Assembly (NCBI RefSeq): GCF_000020665.1
Contig: NC_011071.1
Span: 982,501 to 1,046,500 of the forward strand
From: Stenotrophomonas maltophilia R551-3
Lineage (GTDB): Bacteria; Pseudomonadota; Gammaproteobacteria; Xanthomonadales; Xanthomonadaceae
Length of the DNA stretch: 64,000 nt
Reading direction: 5' to 3'
This document shows, in pieces, positions 11 through 20,100 of this stretch. Each line of letters begins with the position of its first letter. Within the stretch, counting starts at the first letter, position 1. Under the pieces are notes generated by a model. The model saw only the letters and a list, made by a program, of their open reading frames with translations, did no database searches and was not told where the DNA came from. A program made the position numbers and the translations under genes.

Positions 11-57
11 GATATAGAAAAAGGGCTGCCGAAAGGCAGCCCTTTTTCTATATCTGG
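8..57 (+). terminator. tRNA-Ser terminator-like palindrome
   Basis: A near-perfect inverted repeat: CCAGATATAGAAAAAGGG, then CTGCC, a GAAA tetraloop, then the matching arm ending in CTATATCTGG. The outer CCAG overlaps the encoded CCA of the tRNA. The GC-rich core followed by a T-run is typical of Rho-independent termination. The tRNA-Ser gene at 22 kb has a palindrome of the same design. Confidence 0.7.
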
Positions 58-1330
58 CGCGGGACGCGACGCGCTCTGCGCGCCGCCCCACACGTTGCTG
101 CGCAACCTGTGGGCCCCTCCCTTTGCCGGCCTCTCCCCGCCCCTGTCGGGGCAGCCCCTCAACAGAGGGGCTTGTTGCTCCAGATGGTTCCGTGCGTGGT
201 CGATGGGGCATTGATGACTTCCTTGTCTCTGCAGGAACAGAAGAGGGCTGCCGAAAGGCAGCCCTTTTTCTATATCTGGCGCGGGACGCGCCGCGCTTTG
301 CGCGCCGCCCCACACGTTGCTGCGCAACCTGTGGGCCCCTCCCTTTGCCGGCCTCTCCCCGCCCCTGTCGGGGCAGCCCCTCAACAGAGGGGCTTGTTGC
401 TCCAGATGGTTCCGTGCGTGGTCGATGGGGCATTGATGACTTCCTTGTCTCTGCAGGAACAGAAGAGGGCTGCCGAAAGGCAGCCCTTTTTCTATATCTG
501 GCGCGGGACGCGACGCGCTCTGCGCGCCGCCCCACACGTTGCTGCGCAACCTGTGGGCCCCTCCCTTTGCCGGCCTCTCCCCGCCCCTGTCGGGGCAGCC
601 CCTCAACAGAGGGGCTTGTTGCTCCAGATGGTTCCGTGCGTGGTCGATGGGGCATTGATGACTTCCTTGTCTCTGCAGGAACAGAAGAGGGCTGCCGAAA
701 GGCAGCCCTTTTTCTATATCTGGCGCGGGACGCGCCGCGCTTTGCGCGCCGCCCCACACGTTGCTGCGCAACCTGTGGGCCCCTCCCTTTGCCGGCCTCT
801 CCCCGCCCCTGTCGGGGCAGCCCCTCAACAGAGGGGCTTGTTGCTCCAGATGGTTCCGTGCGTGGCGGATGGGGCATTGATGACTTCCTTGTCTCTGCAG
901 GAACAGAAGAGGGCTGCCGAAAGGCAGCCCTTTTTCTATATCTGGCGCGGGACGCAACGCGCTCTGCGCGTCGCCCCACATGTTGCTGCGCAACCTGCGG
1001 GCCCCTCCCTTTGCCTGCCTCTCCCCGCCCTGTCGGGGCAGCCCCTCAACAGAGAGGCTTGTTGCTCCAGATGGTTCCGTGCGTGGTCGATGGGGCATTG
1101 ATGACTTCCTTGTCTCTGCAGGAACAGAAGAGGGCTGCCTTTCGGCAGCCCTTTTTCTATATCTGGTGCGGGACGCGACGTGCTCTGCGCGCCGCCCCAC
1201 ACGTTGCTGCGCAACCTTTGGGCCTCTCCCTTTGCCGGCCTCTCCCCGCCCCTGTCGGGGCAGCCCCTCAACAGAGGGGCTTGTTGCTCCAGATGGTTCC
1301 GTGCGTGGTGGATGGGGCATTGATGACTTC
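22..1330. repeat. Tandem array of about six 222-bp units
   Basis: The marker CAGATGGTTCCGTGCGTGG (last copy variant) recurs at 181, 403, 625, 847, 1068 and 1290, giving a period of 222 bp (221 once). Each unit holds a terminator-like hairpin (GGGCTGCC-GAAA-GGCAGCCC followed by T5), a GC-rich GCGCGGGACGCG block and a second hairpin (CCCCTCAACAGAGGGG). Units 1 and 3 carry ACGCGACGCGCTCTGCG while units 2 and 4 carry ACGCGCCGCGCTTTGCG, so the array seems to have grown by duplicating a two-unit block. It runs up to the stop codon of the converging autotransporter gene. Because 222 is a multiple of three, reading frames stay open across it, but no RBS or known protein is visible. A related single unit lies beside tRNA-Ser at 22 kb. 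Confidence 0.95.
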
Positions 1331-1333
1331 TGC

Positions 1334-4300
1334 TCAGAACCTGTAGCCCAGCCCCAGCTGTACGCCGTTCTGGGACTGCCCGTCACGACGCTCGCCCACG
1401 TAGTCGACCATGATCGACAGCCGCTCGCTGGCACGACTGGTCACGCCCAGGTTCCAGGCCAGCACCTGTTCGCCCACCACCTGGCTGCTGCTGCCGAACA
1501 ACAGGTCCGGGGCGGCAGCAAAGGAGGTGCTGTAGCGGGCCTGGGTATCGCCCAGTTCCTTCTGCCAGACCACGCGGGCACGCGGGGTGATGCGCTCGCC
1601 GCTGTTGCCTTCGAACGTCTTGAACAACTGCAGGCCGGCACCTACGCGGATGCTCTCCAGGCTGCCACTGCGGCCGACCAGTGCGGCCGCGTCCTGGCCC
1701 TCGTTGAAGCGCGTGGCTGAGGTGCGGGTGTAGTCGATCACTGGCAGCAGCGGCTGGATCACCAGACCCTTGCCCGTGGTGAAGGAGAACGCGTGCTCCA
1801 CGCGTGCGGTGATCGCATCGTTGTTGTATTTCGCGCGCAGGGGAGCCTGCAGGCCGTCGATGCCATCGATGCTGCGGCGGGTGTCGTGGCGAAGATCGGT
1901 GTAGCGGACGGCAGCGGACAGGTAGCCGCGCGAGTAGAGCGCATCCACGTAGCCGCCAATATCCAGTGCACGGACATCGCCAGTGAAGCCTGCGCCACCG
2001 CTGGATTTTGTCGACATGTCGGCCGCGGCAAGGCTTACGCCCAGTGTTACGCGGTCGTCTGCGAGGCGGGTATCGGCACCGAGCGCAATGCCACCGATGG
2101 TGTGGCTCAGGCCGGCGACACCGCCGTCACCCTCGATACGGCCATGGCTGGCGAAACCCCGCGCCCAGAGACCACGGTTGCGGCCCGTATCGTCCGTATC
2201 GTTGCCTGCATCCGATGGTGCGACCAGATGCATCGCCAGTTGGTTGAACAGCCGATTGCCGGTCATCGCCGATTGCACCGACGCCGCCTGTGCAGCCTGT
2301 GCCGCCAGGCCATCGGCATCGCCACCGCTGCGCGATGCGGCCTGATGCTGCTGCACCACGTTGCCGATGCTGCCGACCAGTGCGTTGTCGGCCAGGCGCA
2401 GGCTGGCATGCGCATCGCCGCGCAGCGCCCCCGCCTGGCGCGCGATGACGTCGCGGTCGGCGAACTGCAGAGCGCCCAGCAGGCTACTCATCGATGCCGT
2501 GCGCTGTGCCGCTGCCTGTTGCAGAGCAACGCCCAACCCATCACCGGATCGAGCATTGGCGAACAGGCCGGTGTCATCGAAGGAAGGATTGGCCGTCAGC
2601 CACAGGCCGCTGCCGGTCTGGTTGACAGTGAAGCTGAGCAGCGAGTTGTGGCGGGGACGGAACACGGCGCCCGGCGCCGTGAGATCAACCGCGCTCCCCG
2701 CTTCGCCACTGCGTTCAACGTACTGGAAGCGTCCTTCGATGAAGTCCGATACCGGAGCCGGGCGGGTCAGGGTGGCGGGCGTAGCCGTTCGGCACCACAG
2801 GCCTGCGTACTCGCCATTGGATGGGCTGCAGGGGGCGACAGGCAATTGCAGGGCGGCGGAATCCACCTGGGTTCCCACCAGATGGTTCTCCTGCCCTGCA
2901 GGGAAGAATGCCTGCTTCACGTCCAGCGTCAGCCTGGCAGTGGGCGCAATGCCCAGTACTGCGCGGTTGATGTTTCCGATCAGGTTGTAGTCGCTCGATC
3001 GCCTGTCCTCCTCGACCAGGAAGTAACGGGCCTCTTCCAGCGTCAGTGACGGTGCGGTGCGCTGGCTGTCGACCTGGAAGGCCAGGTTCGCCCCGTCATT
3101 GAGGTTGATGTAGCGGCCCTTTCCGATCCGGAAGCGTTCGCTGGTGAAAACGTCGTCGCCGCCTGGTGCCAGCGCTTCCAGCGAGTAGGGGCGCATGACG
3201 ATGCCGGACGGTGCCAGCGTGCCGCCTTCGTTGATGTCGATCGTGGCATTCAACGAGCCGTGGCCGGCAAGTACACCGCCACGTTCGACCAGGGTCAGGT
3301 TGCGCAGCGCGCCGCCCTGTAGTTCGATCCGGCCACCATTACGGGCACCGATGGCTTCGGCGTGATGTATCCAGCCATTCTGCTGCAGCCGCAGGGTGCC
3401 ACCGTCCACGACCACGTACTGGGCAGCGGAAGGAGTATCCAATGACCAGACGCCGCCCTTGCCGATGCGGATGACCCCGAAGGCATCGTCCAGCCGGATG
3501 TCCGACGCCGACTGCTGGAAGTAGCGCAGGTTGGCGACCGCGTTGGTGTAGCGACCGCGAACCGCCAGATGCGGATTGAGATCCCCACTCACCTCCTTCT
3601 CGACGGAGAGGACATCGCCCGGCATCACGTAGCCGGCCTCGGTCACCACGCGATCGCTGTACATCGTGACACCTGGATATTCAGTGCAGTTGCCTGCAGC
3701 GCTCTGGTCACGGGTCGGGCAGAAGCGCGTGGCCACGGCCACGGTGGTGGGGTCGAAATAGCGCAGGAAGCCCGATTGCTGGGTCAGTTCGTAGTGGGCC
3801 TGGATGATGCGTGCTTCGATGACTGCGAAATCGGTGGGGCCGAACATGTCCCGGTAATACTTGATGTACTTGTCCTGCCCCGGATAGGGCGTGGGTCCAT
3901 TGGGGCCGGATTCACCATGGATCCCCAGCACGGTCTGGGTGTAGTTGCCATGTGCTGGCAGCAGGCCGAACTGCGTCACCTTCCGGTTCACGCCTGCGAC
4001 GAAAGCATCCGCGCATGCCGAGTAGCAACCGCCGTCCAACACGGTATCCAGCCCGTGCTGGCGGATGATGGCGCCCATTCCCACGCCACCGGAGGCGGCG
4101 CCACCGGGTGAGTTGCGGAACACCACCTGGCGCAGTGGCGTGCCGCGTGCCTTGGCGGCAAGGACATAGGCCTCCAGCGTACCGGGGTCGGTCGCCAGCA
4201 CATTGCCGGTGTAGTAAAGCGTGTCTCCATTCACATGGAAGGCACTGGCACGGGCTGCGGGCGCGGCCGCCATGCCGAGGAGCGCTGCAAGAAGGGCGCT

Positions 4301-4348
4301 GCCGAGGATGGCTTTGCGGTGGGCGGGCAGGGCGGGAAATGGGTGCAT
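1334..4348 (-). CDS. Autotransporter with N-terminal ClpP-like (COG3904-type) passenger domain
   Basis: Predicted type Va autotransporter of 1,004 residues. The chosen ATG at 4348 gives a clean signal peptide (basic MHPFPALPAHRK, hydrophobic core, cleavage near ARASA at about residue 36); an upstream TTG would spoil it. Residues about 40-150 resemble periplasmic ClpP/crotonase-fold proteins: FRNSPGGAAS at 77-86, GGCYSACADAF at 106-116 with candidate nucleophile Ser110, and GIHGE around His144. The middle has beta-helix-like repeats (GGTLRLQQNG, GGRIELQGG, GGTLAPSG). The last 275 or so residues form an autotransporter beta-barrel (LWARGFASHGR to a C-terminal YRF). The barrel and secretion route are convincing; protease activity is inferred from motifs only. 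It converges on the 222-bp array and has its own upstream region with an inverted repeat. Confidence 0.85.
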   Translation of the reverse strand: MHPFPALPAHRKAILGSALLAALLGMAAAPAARASAFHVNGDTLYYTGNVLATDPGTLEAYVLAAKARGTPLRQVVFRNSPGGAASGGVGMGAIIRQHGLDTVLDGGCYSACADAFVAGVNRKVTQFGLLPAHGNYTQTVLGIHGESGPNGPTPYPGQDKYIKYYRDMFGPTDFAVIEARIIQAHYELTQQSGFLRYFDPTTVAVATRFCPTRDQSAAGNCTEYPGVTMYSDRVVTEAGYVMPGDVLSVEKEVSGDLNPHLAVRGRYTNAVANLRYFQQSASDIRLDDAFGVIRIGKGGVWSLDTPSAAQYVVVDGGTLRLQQNGWIHHAEAIGARNGGRIELQGGALRNLTLVERGGVLAGHGSLNATIDINEGGTLAPSGIVMRPYSLEALAPGGDDVFTSERFRIGKGRYINLNDGANLAFQVDSQRTAPSLTLEEARYFLVEEDRRSSDYNLIGNINRAVLGIAPTARLTLDVKQAFFPAGQENHLVGTQVDSAALQLPVAPCSPSNGEYAGLWCRTATPATLTRPAPVSDFIEGRFQYVERSGEAGSAVDLTAPGAVFRPRHNSLLSFTVNQTGSGLWLTANPSFDDTGLFANARSGDGLGVALQQAAAQRTASMSSLLGALQFADRDVIARQAGALRGDAHASLRLADNALVGSIGNVVQQHQAASRSGGDADGLAAQAAQAASVQSAMTGNRLFNQLAMHLVAPSDAGNDTDDTGRNRGLWARGFASHGRIEGDGGVAGLSHTIGGIALGADTRLADDRVTLGVSLAAADMSTKSSGGAGFTGDVRALDIGGYVDALYSRGYLSAAVRYTDLRHDTRRSIDGIDGLQAPLRAKYNNDAITARVEHAFSFTTGKGLVIQPLLPVIDYTRTSATRFNEGQDAAALVGRSGSLESIRVGAGLQLFKTFEGNSGERITPRARVVWQKELGDTQARYSTSFAAAPDLLFGSSSQVVGEQVLAWNLGVTSRASERLSIMVDYVGERRDGQSQNGVQLGLGYRF

Positions 4349-18200: not shown

Positions 18201-20100
18201 CAACGTCGGTGGCAACACCACCGTCGGTGGCACCATCAGCGGCAGCGGTGGCTTGACCCAGGCCGGCGCTGGCACCATCACCCTGACCGGCAACAACACC
18301 TACACCGGCGGCACCACCATCAATGCCGGTGGCACGGTGCAGGTCGGCAACGGCGGGGCCAGCGGTTCGGTCACCGGCAACATCACCAACAATGGTGGCC
18401 TGATCATCAACACTGGTGGCACCACCACGCTGGGCGGCACCATCAGCGGTGGCGGCAGCATCGTGCAGGCTGGCCCGGGCGGGCTGAATCTCGGCGGCAA
18501 CAGCGGTGGTTTCAGCGGCACCGGCCAGGTCACCGGCGGTGGCCTGAATGTCACCGGCAACATCGGCGGCCAGTGGACCATCGGCAGCGGCACCACGCTG
18601 TCCGGCACCGGCACCATCGGGGGTACCGGCGGTGGCGTGACGGTATCCAGCGGCGGCGTGCTCTCGCCGGGCAATGGCCCGGGCAATGGCAGCGGTGCGG
18701 GCAACGGCACCGGCACGATCACGGTGGGTGGCAACCTGACCTTGTCGCCGGGCAGCACGCTGGGCATCGATCTGGGTGCCACCGGCAGTGACACGGTGCA
18801 GGTGGGTGGCAGTGCCAACGTGGGTGGCAGCAGCGTGCAGGTGAATACCATCTCGCCGAGCACCAGCTATCAACAAGGCCAGCAGTACACCGTGGTCAAT
18901 GCGGGTGGTGGCGTGAGCGGGCAGTTCGCTTCGGCCAAGACGCCGTCGGCCTTCCTGACCATCACCCCGATCTACACGGCGAACACGGCCAATCTGCAGA
19001 TCGATGTGGCGCAGACCGCAGCCTTCACCACGGCGGCGAAGACGCGCAACCAGTACAACACCGCCGCAGCACTGGACAGCCTGCCGCAGAGTGGCTCGGC
19101 ACTGGGGCTGTACAACACGGTGTTGATCTATGACGCCGCCACCGCGCGCAGCGCATTCGACCAGCTGTCCGGTGAAGTGCATGCCGCCAGCCGCGCTGTG
19201 CTGCTGTATGACAACTATCTGGAAGAAGGCATCCGCCAGCGCCTGGGCAGTGAGCTGCCGACCGTGCGTGGCGAGCGCGCGTCGGCCTGGCTGGCCGGCA
19301 GCGGCAAGGTGTTCAAGCAGGATGGTGATGGCAACGGCGATGACATCCGCTCCAACCGCAATGCGCTGATGGCCGGCGTGGACTGGCAGCTCGGGGAGCA
19401 CGTGGTGCTGGGTGCAGCGGCCGGCAACGAACGGCTGGATACGCGCCTATACGATCGCAGCTCGCGGGCCCGCCTGCGTGGCAACACCTTCGGCCTGTAT
19501 GCGCAGGGCCAGTGGAACAACGGCTTTGCGGTCGGTGGCAGCGTGTCGCGCGGCGACTACCGCACGCGCACCACGCGTGAGGTGCCGCTGCTGGGCCAGA
19601 CCCTGTACAGCCGCCAGGATTCGGATGTGACCATTGCCCAGGTGGAAGGCAGCTGGACCTGGAGCCACGGCAGGACCCAGCTGCAGCCGTACGTGCAGTT
19701 CACCAAGCACTGGGTCGACAGCGATCGTGCGGTGGAACAGGGCGGCAGTGCTGCGCTGGAGCTGGAAGGCGGCAAGGACACGCTCAATGTCAGCACCGTG
19801 GGCGTGCGTGGGCGCTGGGACGTGGGCAGTGGCGAGCGCTTCCCGGCGCAGCTGACGGTCGGCCTCGGCTGGCAGCATGCATCGGGCGACACCGACGTGG
19901 CCAGCCGCAACCGCTTCGCGGCCGGCGGCAATGCGTTCGATGTGTACAGCGCGGTGATGGCACGCAACGCGCTGGTCAGCCAGCTGGGCGTGGCGGTCGG
20001 CCTGGGCCGCAACAGCCAGCTGTCGATGTTCGTGCAGGGCCAGCACGGCGACGGTCGCCGCGACGTCGGCGGGCAGATCAACCTGCGCGTGGGTTTCTGA
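9211..20100 (+). CDS. Giant autotransporter adhesin with PATR repeats
   Basis: A 3,629-residue type V autotransporter. The ATG at 9211 has an RBS (GGAG) and begins an extended signal peptide (ESPR: MNRIYRLVFNRALGVMQVAS) followed by a hydrophobic stretch to ASGSAFA, so it should pass the Sec system to the outer membrane. The passenger, to about residue 3,200, is almost only autotransporter-associated beta-strand repeats (GGLxLNAGGLxLGNxGALGTG, GVISGTGGLVKNG, TLTLxGANTYTGGTTIN), expected to form a very long beta-helix. Its last repeats are seven 69-residue units of near-identical sequence. The last 300 or so residues are the beta-barrel (SAWLAGSGKVFKQ to a terminal RVGF). Likely role: surface adhesion or biofilm. 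Repeat number probably varies between strains. Confidence 0.95.
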   Translation: MNRIYRLVFNRALGVMQVASEVAQNPGGSAVCAGRVPRLRAHQLAVALAATLASGSAFAACNTVGSTVTCDPGSVSNYINANSGITVNVLAGATLRTPPVIGGGNAATLSGDNVTVNNSGTIDPSSLILASPGLVIGNGSANNSAIVVNNNSGGQIKGVVNIATLLGFGGQALVAQNVNGTTTINNAGLISTSLIGAGSVSDATTVVTYGGAAANVTNTGTIDGRTGLGASGGNTFLNAGAVSGSVHLGDSTGGNTFTAVSGSSVVAGGGSALAGVITGVTGVKVAAAGTVDAGTGSGAANNTLVLQNSAAGPGAGTGGAVTTLGWNRYLNFQKLTVNSGTWNLQGAWGGTGQTTLNDGLVNFNDTDSFGTGLFTANGGAIASSTAGLNLANAFSLGGNLSLAGTNAFGLGGVLSGTGGLTVNNTGIVTLGGANLFSGGVNLNAGGLVLGNAGALGSGNLTVGGSASLDTTAGFTLGNNLVINGAGSLNLLGSNALSLNGSISGAGNLIKAGPGTLTLNGANLLTGSFAVTGGALALGVGGSLSPTSAISLGAGTNLDLSVAASQTIGSLAGSGALNLGARSLTLGGLNTSTSFSGVIGGVGGALVKVGTGTQTLSGANTFTGGVALNGGGLLLGNAGALGTGALGVGGNVSLDGTGGALALANAVNLGAGGILNLSGNQALTFNGVVGGTGSLVKNGAATLTLNNANTFGGGLSLTAGGLVLGNGGALGTGALGVGGVATLDASTALSVGNGINLGAGGSLSVLGSNALTLGGVISGTGSLVKNGAATLTLGGANAFTGGLAINAGKVALASGGSLAATGAVNLVNAGTELDISLGGNQTIGALSGIAGSTVTLGGSTLTFGDATNQTFGGVIGGTGGLVKQGTGTQTLSGANTFSGGLNLAAGGLLLGNGSALGTGALTVSGNGSLDATAALNLGNAINLGAVLTLPGSQNLTLGGNITGSGSLTKNGASLLTLNGTNAFSGGLNLNAGSLLLGNSGALGTGALSVGGNASLDGSTALNLTNNVALGTGASLSLPGTQAVTLGGVVSGAGGLIKNGATTLTLNGANTFGGGLVLNGGGLMLGNAGALGTGLLAVGANATLDSSVALNLANAIDLDAGAQLSLTSNQNVALGGLVSGTGSLIKTGTGVLSLNNSNTFSGGLALNAGGLSVGANGALGTGALNIGGNVSLDASAPVSLANAVSLGANTLTLPGSSNLTLSGVVSGAGGLIKNGASTLTLSGANTFLGGATVNAGTLALGAGGSLAAAGAVNLAGTGAALDISAAGAGQTIGALNGVAGSQVTLGAQSLTFGGASNGAFAGVIDGSGGLIKIGTGVQTLSGANTFSGGVALNAGGLVLGNAGALGTGALGIGGNVSLDSTVALNLGNAVNFGVGTQLTLGGSSDVALSGVVAGAGNLVKNGTGLLTLNNSNTFGGGLALNGGGLVVGANGALGTGALAVNASTTLDAGAAVSLGNAVNLGSGVALTLPGSNALTLSGVIGGNGSLVKSGAATLTLSGANTYTGGTTINAGTLALGVGGSLAAAGDVTLGAGAGFDISGAGGSQTIGALNGAGGSTLALGGNSLTFGTAGNAAFDGVISGGGGLVKVGAGVQTLSAANTFGGGVTLNAGGLLLGNDAALGSGALTVGGAATLDTTGLAALTNNIALNAGLTVLGTNALTLNGVISGTGSLTKDGVATLTLNGINTYTGGTNINTGTLALGAGASLAASGTVNLATGATLDLSAGSGTQVFGTLVGNGTVNLGANSIEVGGATNGTFSGSIAGTGGLTKVGAGIETLTGANTYTGGTFINAGTLAIGPGGSLAATGAVTLTAAGTGFDISTSGASQTIGSLAGVIGSTVSLGAQSLILGGNGNSVFDGAISGTGGLVKNGTGILTLGGANLFSGGLALNGGGLVVGNNAALGSGALTVGANATLDASIAANLANNIALASGANLDLLGSNALTLGGMVSGTGGLIKNGAATVTLTGANTYTGGTTINSGTLAIGAGGSLASTGAVDLAGTGTLDISAGNQSIGSLAGVAGSTVALGGSALTLGGTVDSAFNGAITGNGGLIKNGAGVQTLNGASTFSGGVTLNAGGLVVGNDAALGTGAVTVGGNGTLDSNTAVTLANNFVLNAGLTVLGSNNLTLNGNLSGTGALTKDGLATLTLNGTNTYTGGTFINAGTLALGAGASLHASGIVNLASGATFDLSAGSGTQQFGTLVGNGTVNLGANTLTIGGPANGTFSGSVGGTGGLIKEGTGTQTLTGNNTFTGGTTINAGTLAIGAGGSLASNGAVTLANAGTAFDISAGGAQSIGSLAGVAGSTVALGGSTLTLNGVGNTTFAGDITGTGGLVKNGAGVQTLIGANTFSGGVALNAGGLTLGNGGALGTGTLTVGGNAMLDGTTALTVGNNVQLTSGTLTLAGSNALALNGVISGAGGLLKDGAATVTLGGASSYAGDTTINSGVLAVGAGGTLSGASTVNLTGAGTLDISAGGNQSIGGLAGVTGSSVVLGGATLTTGGNNGSTAFAGVLSGSGGLVQSGTGTLTLSGDNVYTGGTTINGGSTLQLGNGGSTGSVLGDITNNGSLVYNLGSTATVGGVVSGSGGLTQAGSGTLVLTGNNTYTGGTTINAGGTLQVGNGGATGAIVGDITNNGALVSNVAGNTTLGGTISGSGGLTQAGAGTLVLTGNNTYTGGTTINAGGTLQVGNGGATGAITGNVANNGSLVFDVAGNTTVGGAISGSGGLTQAGGGVLTLVGNNTYTGGTTINTGGTLQVGNGGATGSIAGDITNNGSLISNVAGNTLLGGTISGTGGLTQAGSGTLVLTGTNTYTGGTTINTGGTLQLGNGGATGSIVGDVINNGTLVSNVAGNTTLGGTISGSGGLTQAGSGTLTVTGNNTYTGPTTINTGGTLQVGNGGATGSIGGSVTNNGSLVFNVGGNTTVGGAISGSGGLTQAGSGTLILGGNNTYTGGTTINTGGTLQVGNGGAGGSIAGNVSNNGSLVFNVGGNTTVGGTISGSGGLTQAGAGTITLTGNNTYTGGTTINAGGTVQVGNGGASGSVTGNITNNGGLIINTGGTTTLGGTISGGGSIVQAGPGGLNLGGNSGGFSGTGQVTGGGLNVTGNIGGQWTIGSGTTLSGTGTIGGTGGGVTVSSGGVLSPGNGPGNGSGAGNGTGTITVGGNLTLSPGSTLGIDLGATGSDTVQVGGSANVGGSSVQVNTISPSTSYQQGQQYTVVNAGGGVSGQFASAKTPSAFLTITPIYTANTANLQIDVAQTAAFTTAAKTRNQYNTAAALDSLPQSGSALGLYNTVLIYDAATARSAFDQLSGEVHAASRAVLLYDNYLEEGIRQRLGSELPTVRGERASAWLAGSGKVFKQDGDGNGDDIRSNRNALMAGVDWQLGEHVVLGAAAGNERLDTRLYDRSSRARLRGNTFGLYAQGQWNNGFAVGGSVSRGDYRTRTTREVPLLGQTLYSRQDSDVTIAQVEGSWTWSHGRTQLQPYVQFTKHWVDSDRAVEQGGSAALELEGGKDTLNVSTVGVRGRWDVGSGERFPAQLTVGLGWQHASGDTDVASRNRFAAGGNAFDVYSAVMARNALVSQLGVAVGLGRNSQLSMFVQGQHGDGRRDVGGQINLRVGF
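16852..18300 (+). repeat. Seven 207-bp coding repeats in the autotransporter
   Basis: Tyr-Thr-Gly-Gly/Pro-Thr-Thr-Ile starts recur at 16852, 17059, 17266, 17473, 17680, 17887 and 18094, with an eighth partial unit from 18301: an exact 207-bp (69-residue) period. Nucleotide identity is high, unlike the more diverged repeats upstream, which points to recent expansion or ongoing recombination. Confidence 0.93.

Follow-up and report, generated by a model that had tools for sequence, protein, structure and literature searches.

What does the autotransporter encoded at one end of a 64,000-nucleotide stretch of Stenotrophomonas maltophilia R551-3 (NC_011071.1, positions 982,501 to 1,046,500; the window) carry as its passenger? 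An initial reading of the letters, hereafter the sequence-only reading, had proposed a ClpP-like, serine-protease-like domain, an unusual cargo given that the known protease autotransporters have passengers of the subtilisin and chymotrypsin types. From sequence comparisons and structure models, we consider it likely that this protein (P0001) is a type Va autotransporter displaying a ClpP-fold serine hydrolase, probably a peptidase, at the cell surface. Computation shows the barrel, the overall layout of the protein, a tip whose predicted fold is that of ClpP, and the conservation of Ser110 and His144. If the reading is right, ClpP would be the third protease fold among autotransporters, after subtilisin and chymotrypsin; the type V route would accept a further catalytic fold, and a ClpP-type peptidase would work outside the cell without its ATPase.

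That P0001 carries an autotransporter barrel is certain. This C-terminal barrel matches PF03797 in Pfam (E 3.5e-38, residues 727-983) and is preceded by a helix, the arrangement of type Va proteins. The best-matching barrel is that of EstA, and alignments with EspP and NalP run from residues 638 and 643 on, respectively. The ATG taken as the start is also used by the two closest relatives in the alignment, and the export-signal region forms a helix (residues 10-26) in the full-length model, at low confidence. The parts of the protein are collected in Table 1.

Table 1. Parts of the P0001 gene, in window coordinates.
Feature	Position	Strand	Basis
Autotransporter gene, 1004 aa (P0001)	1334..4348	-	Open reading frame, ATG at 4348 to stop at 1334
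N-terminal export signal, residues 1-35 (basic start, hydrophobic stretch, ARA/SA end)	4244..4348	-	Predicted, read from sequence
ClpP-fold passenger module, residues 36-258	3575..4243	-	Predicted fold
FRNSPGG, residues 77-83	4100..4120	-	Aligned with NSPGG of ClpP
GGCYSACA, residues 106-113, candidate nucleophile Ser110 (codon 4019-4021)	4010..4033	-	Motif, register, conservation
GIHG, residues 142-145, candidate base His144 (codon 3917-3919)	3914..3925	-	Motif, register, conservation
Beta-strand-rich stalk, residues 259-600	2549..3574	-	Predicted
Helical linker, residues 601-723	2180..2548	-	Secondary structure of full-length model, low confidence at 678-722
Autotransporter beta-barrel, residues 724-1004, and stop	1334..2179	-	PF03797

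A structural check on the passenger, set beforehand, agrees with the fold that the sequence-only reading had proposed. All 50 matches listed by Foldseek for the passenger model are entries of ClpP, alone or complexed, or of the ClpP-like protease 1510-N, and the same holds for all 50 listed by VIA-align, which places the predicted module in the ClpP/crotonase superfamily. The full-length model also predicts a 30-residue helix (157-186) in the module, at what we take to be the position of the handle helix of ClpP. These matches bear on whether the module could be an active serine hydrolase of another kind, such as an esterase, thioesterase or deacylase. Several chemistries are built on the ClpP/crotonase fold, and EstA of Pseudomonas aeruginosa, whose barrel P0001 most resembles, is an esterase autotransporter that differs in having a GDSL esterase as its passenger. 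However, the VIA-align matches listed are peptidase entries without exception and, in the hhalign comparison below, Ser110 and His144 fall at the ClpP positions, so we regard a non-protease hydrolase as improbable.

FRNSPGG (residues 77-83), GGCYSACA with Ser110 and a downstream His144 are all where they had been placed at the outset. We used hhalign to compare 30 autotransporter domains with 12 ClpP sequences from related genomes, and the resulting register sets NSPGG on NSPGG, Ser110 on the catalytic Ser of ClpP and His144 on the catalytic His, as we take those ClpP residues to be. The type A alignment (19 sequences) yields this register as well as the combined alignment of 30. In three HMMER alignments to PDB sequences, the ClpP Ser lies two residues off Ser110 in two and the ClpP His meets His144 in none; an insertion accounts for the misplaced His, and the profile-profile alignment places both residues. 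The full-length model places Ser110 after strand 101-109 and ahead of helix 111-116, with His144 just behind strand 140-143. The proposed closeness of Ser110 to a histidine is therefore supported indirectly, through the register and this predicted placement. We infer that Ser110 and His144 would work as a nucleophile-base pair and that the FRNSPGG loop, whose counterpart in ClpP is presumably the oxyanion loop, would form the oxyanion hole.

Conservation singles out the same residues, beyond what chance would give. When P0001 is aligned with 15 relatives (16 sequences), 44 of the 223 domain columns are invariant, including Ser110, His144, Gly82, Gly83, Cys108, Cys112, Cys210 and Cys221; only two of the nine serines in the domain (Ser110, Ser231) and one of the five histidines (His144) are so conserved. 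We extended this to 55 loci, comprising the strong matches of the genus, family, order and phylum surveys described below without a copy that is split in the congener G024. The loci yield 56 domain open reading frames (ORFs), because a frameshifted copy (L134) gives two, and the second of these is the single gap in each kept column (Ser110, His144, Gly82/83, Cys108/112). All 55 loci retain Ser110, His144, Gly82, Gly83, Gly106, Cys108, Cys112, Gly119 and Arg122; changes do occur at Asn79, Pro81, Ala111, Cys210 and Cys221. A rival reading is that the module is no longer an enzyme and has become a binding tip, an adhesin or receptor, that keeps Ser110 and His144 for structure. Gly107 and Pro81, neighbours of motif residues, do vary across the loci, no conserved acid is apparent at the ClpP Asp position on our reading of the alignments, and the autotransporters that have been characterised are mostly adhesins or recruiters. 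Against this stand the invariance of so few serines and histidines, the retention of Ser110 and His144 at every locus while other positions change, and the occurrence of the same motif pair in short relatives (below); we consider a non-enzymatic tip unlikely, if somewhat less so than a hydrolase of another kind.

Several results weigh against a surface-displayed peptidase. Apart from the barrel, no Pfam family matches P0001 at E<=1, and NCBIfam matches lie at the barrel end only, leaving the passenger with no protease family in either library. The domain profile retrieves 17 distinct PDB sequences up to E 10, 16 of them ClpP, and the best (E 0.024) is not significant alone. The hhalign comparison of 30 domains with 12 ClpP sequences has an E of 0.0017 at the low probability of 15%, and the paralogue type on its own (11 sequences) gives no alignment with ClpP (probability 0.2%, unrelated columns). 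Foldseek TM-scores are modest (0.36-0.53), and one domain model of five stands above the others in confidence, the remaining four reaching 77, 67, 65 and 56. The column read as the equivalent of the ClpP Asp is not acidic in the alignments and offers no conserved acid; Asp199, conserved in 16 of 16 alignment rows and 54 of 56 ORFs, is at best a candidate acid. Lastly, the ClpP/crotonase fold also serves enzymes that are not proteases. As only the autotransporter part rises above the cut-offs of Pfam and NCBIfam, the enzyme module has been easy to overlook.

By its sequence, P0001 falls outside ClpP family S14 on the Pfam CLP_protease test, which gave no match in P0001 at E<=1 or in 15 domain members at E<=10. 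The module and ClpP are alike in predicted fold, in the register of Ser and His and in the NSPGG loop, but the best structural alignment shows them 14% identical, the ClpP Asp is not seen conserved, and P0001 carries an export signal and implies no Clp ATPase partner. Other candidates were set aside. A Peptidase_S8 or S6 passenger has no Pfam match in P0001 at E<=1, and the predicted fold is that of ClpP; the EprS model NF051851 (NCBIfam) scores far below its cut-off, with its best stretch (716-1004) at the barrel end. Three Pfam names on the 15 domain members (E<=10) are unrelated and at chance level (best E 0.038), as are two glucose-6-phosphate isomerase rows from a single-sequence PDB search, and the seventeenth PDB row of the profile search, toxin Sm2a (E 0.53), is unrelated as well.

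How widespread is the protein? A search with residues 30-330 against a database of 5.8 billion sequences gave 6978 candidates and 15 proteins at E<=0.001, of 845-1035 aa and all with PF03797; two are near-copies of P0001 (98 and 93%), and those named belong to Stenotrophomonas, Luteimonas, Pseudomonas and Brevundimonas. The searched viral contigs hold no relative. Within the genus, the domain profile matches 45 of 91 genomes at E<=1e-4, one of them (G055) weakly. Further afield it matches at least 16 of 297 genomes in the family sample (E<=1e-4), at least 17 of 299 in the order sample and at least 55 of 398 in the phylum sample (both E<=1e-7), and at least 2 of 321 in the class sample (E<=1e-20), namely the window's own genome and another member of the genus; these are lower bounds because scoring covered no more than 7-10 candidates per genome, and the samples overlap, with genus members making up 9, 10, 4 and 2 of the matching family, order, phylum and class genomes. 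The matches separate into two groups, strong ones (>80 bits) that mostly sit in frames 966-1263 aa long and weak ones (<55 bits) in frames 166-650 aa long; three strong matches fall outside the genus, one each in the same family (G091), order (G560) and class (G756). A barrel profile built from the 16-sequence alignment finds a barrel in 55 of the 56 ORFs, the exception being the first part of L134; one ORF (L133, 525 aa) is shortened, with most of its stalk and linker gone. Over 12 of the 15 relatives (without the two near-copies and P0011, which has a broken barrel), the ClpP-like module has a median identity to P0001 of 57%, the stalk 30%, the linker 32% and the barrel 38%; as the passenger served as the query that retrieved these relatives, the values may favour it. 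Even so, a passenger module that has changed less than the barrel it is attached to is in keeping with an enzyme.

The module also has relatives that are not autotransporters. A domain alignment search returned 18 proteins at E<=0.01; three (P0017-P0019) are broken pieces of the P0001 protein in close relatives, and the other fifteen are proteins of 151-364 aa without Pfam domains. One of them, P0020 with 227 aa, aligns to 91% of the domain and has retained the Cys210/Cys221 pair. Among nine of the fifteen that were scanned, three faintly match CLP_protease or NfeD1b_N in Pfam and seven faintly match ClpP-type NCBIfam models (head maturation protease NF045542 being one example), with every match below cut-off. 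Across 45 short entries, in which two pairs are the same gene, CxS[AST]C occurs in 44 and [GVIW][FIYWV]H behind it in 43, mostly 23-24 residues after the Ser; these counts lean towards the motif because the collecting profiles contain it. The short proteins and the P0001 module thus share a GG loop, CxSxC and GxH, but the former show no stalk or barrel, span 151-650 aa and mostly have a Ser-His spacing of 23-24 rather than 34; the spacing in ClpP is 25. The tie to periplasmic COG3904-like proteins drawn by the sequence-only reading holds as far as these motifs and the profile matches go, and the COG3904 label itself is tentative. Judged by titles, no paper on short or periplasmic ClpP-like proteins turned up, and for COG3904 the titles yielded one on Vibrio vulnificus genomes.

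Several of these short relatives appear by eye to begin with a hydrophobic leader and to lack a barrel, which raises the prospect that the P0001 passenger stays and works in the periplasm with the barrel as a mere anchor. Conserved cysteine pairs, unusual in passengers, point the same way. Yet the stalk, linker and barrel are laid out as in secreted autotransporters, and both pairs are closely spaced (three residues between Cys108 and Cys112, ten between Cys210 and Cys221), a spacing thought to be tolerated by autotransporters, so a periplasmic passenger seems very unlikely. The two pairs would form small disulfides after export, and the paralogue type described below, which lacks Cys210 and Cys221 together, fits a Cys210-Cys221 bond.

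On the surface-peptidase reading, the barrel and helix would sit in the outer membrane, the beta-strand stalk would project outward, and the tip (residues 36-258), a ClpP-fold serine hydrolase module, would reach the surface and there cleave proteins or peptides, needing neither ATP nor a Clp unfoldase. Ssp of Serratia marcescens and NalP are subtilisin-like protease autotransporters, and P0001 resembles them in its succession of stalk, linker and barrel, differing in that their catalytic module has the subtilisin fold and its own is predicted to be ClpP-fold; the Ssp-type layout would have had its catalytic module swapped for a relative of the short ClpP-like proteins. We give even chances to the fuller account, in which a ClpP-fold peptidase has moved outside the cell on a type V stalk and barrel and become a surface protease that is independent of ATP, relies on a Ser-His pair whose acid is unconventional or absent, and has been maintained and duplicated in Stenotrophomonas. 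Action on its own passenger or on surface targets, as first suggested, is a guess. A surface-displayed member would make the activity of the short ClpP-like proteins testable on whole cells. The literature that we searched, which leaves out preprints and most subscription journals and so is a weak guide, holds no description of a ClpP-fold passenger; a search by terms in two autotransporter surveys finds neither Clp nor crotonase (PMC3419190) and neither ClpP, Clp protease nor crotonase (PMC9289746).

The same genome encodes a second such protein (L084), a 972-aa frame with its domain at G000:C1:1292165-1292791. The barrel ends of the two are 82% identical over 405 residues and their first ~250 residues 34%, a contrast that may reflect gene conversion or an exchange of barrels involving the two genes. 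The paralogue type is the commoner in our set, its Thr at position 79 appearing in 44 of 56 ORFs. Upstream of the paralogue lie a divergent sigma factor and a FecR-type regulator (L014 3-1177, G000:C1 near 1,291,000), as at both other paralogue loci checked (L011, L012), and the paralogue may be under surface signalling.

P0001 itself is flanked by phosphatase-like and exonuclease-like genes (named by eye) on one side and by DUF6165, heptosyltransferase and Kdo-kinase genes on the other, with the same neighbours at both orthologous loci checked (L009, L010). There the autotransporter is 88-90% identical, DUF6165 86-89% and the other neighbours 94-99%; for a surface protein, a lower identity than that of most neighbours is to be expected. 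Immediately downstream of the autotransporter stop, a tandem array occupies window positions 22-1330 (222-bp unit, 5.9 copies, 96% matches), each unit containing by eye an inverted repeat and then a T run, like an intrinsic terminator. In the congener G024, the orthologous gene is split by a ~38 kb element (L082/L083, G024:C1, about 1,017,150-1,056,280). Six ORFs of the element were scanned; three of them hit a phage DNA methyltransferase or families of phage tail or tail assembly, and another two hit phage families whose function is unknown. Where the gene is broken, its two halves have 5 bp in common, an overlap as seen with Mu-like transposing phages, and the gene is intact in other genomes. 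Elsewhere in the window, another autotransporter barrel lies at about 19285-20025 on the forward strand, within an open frame of 3671 aa.
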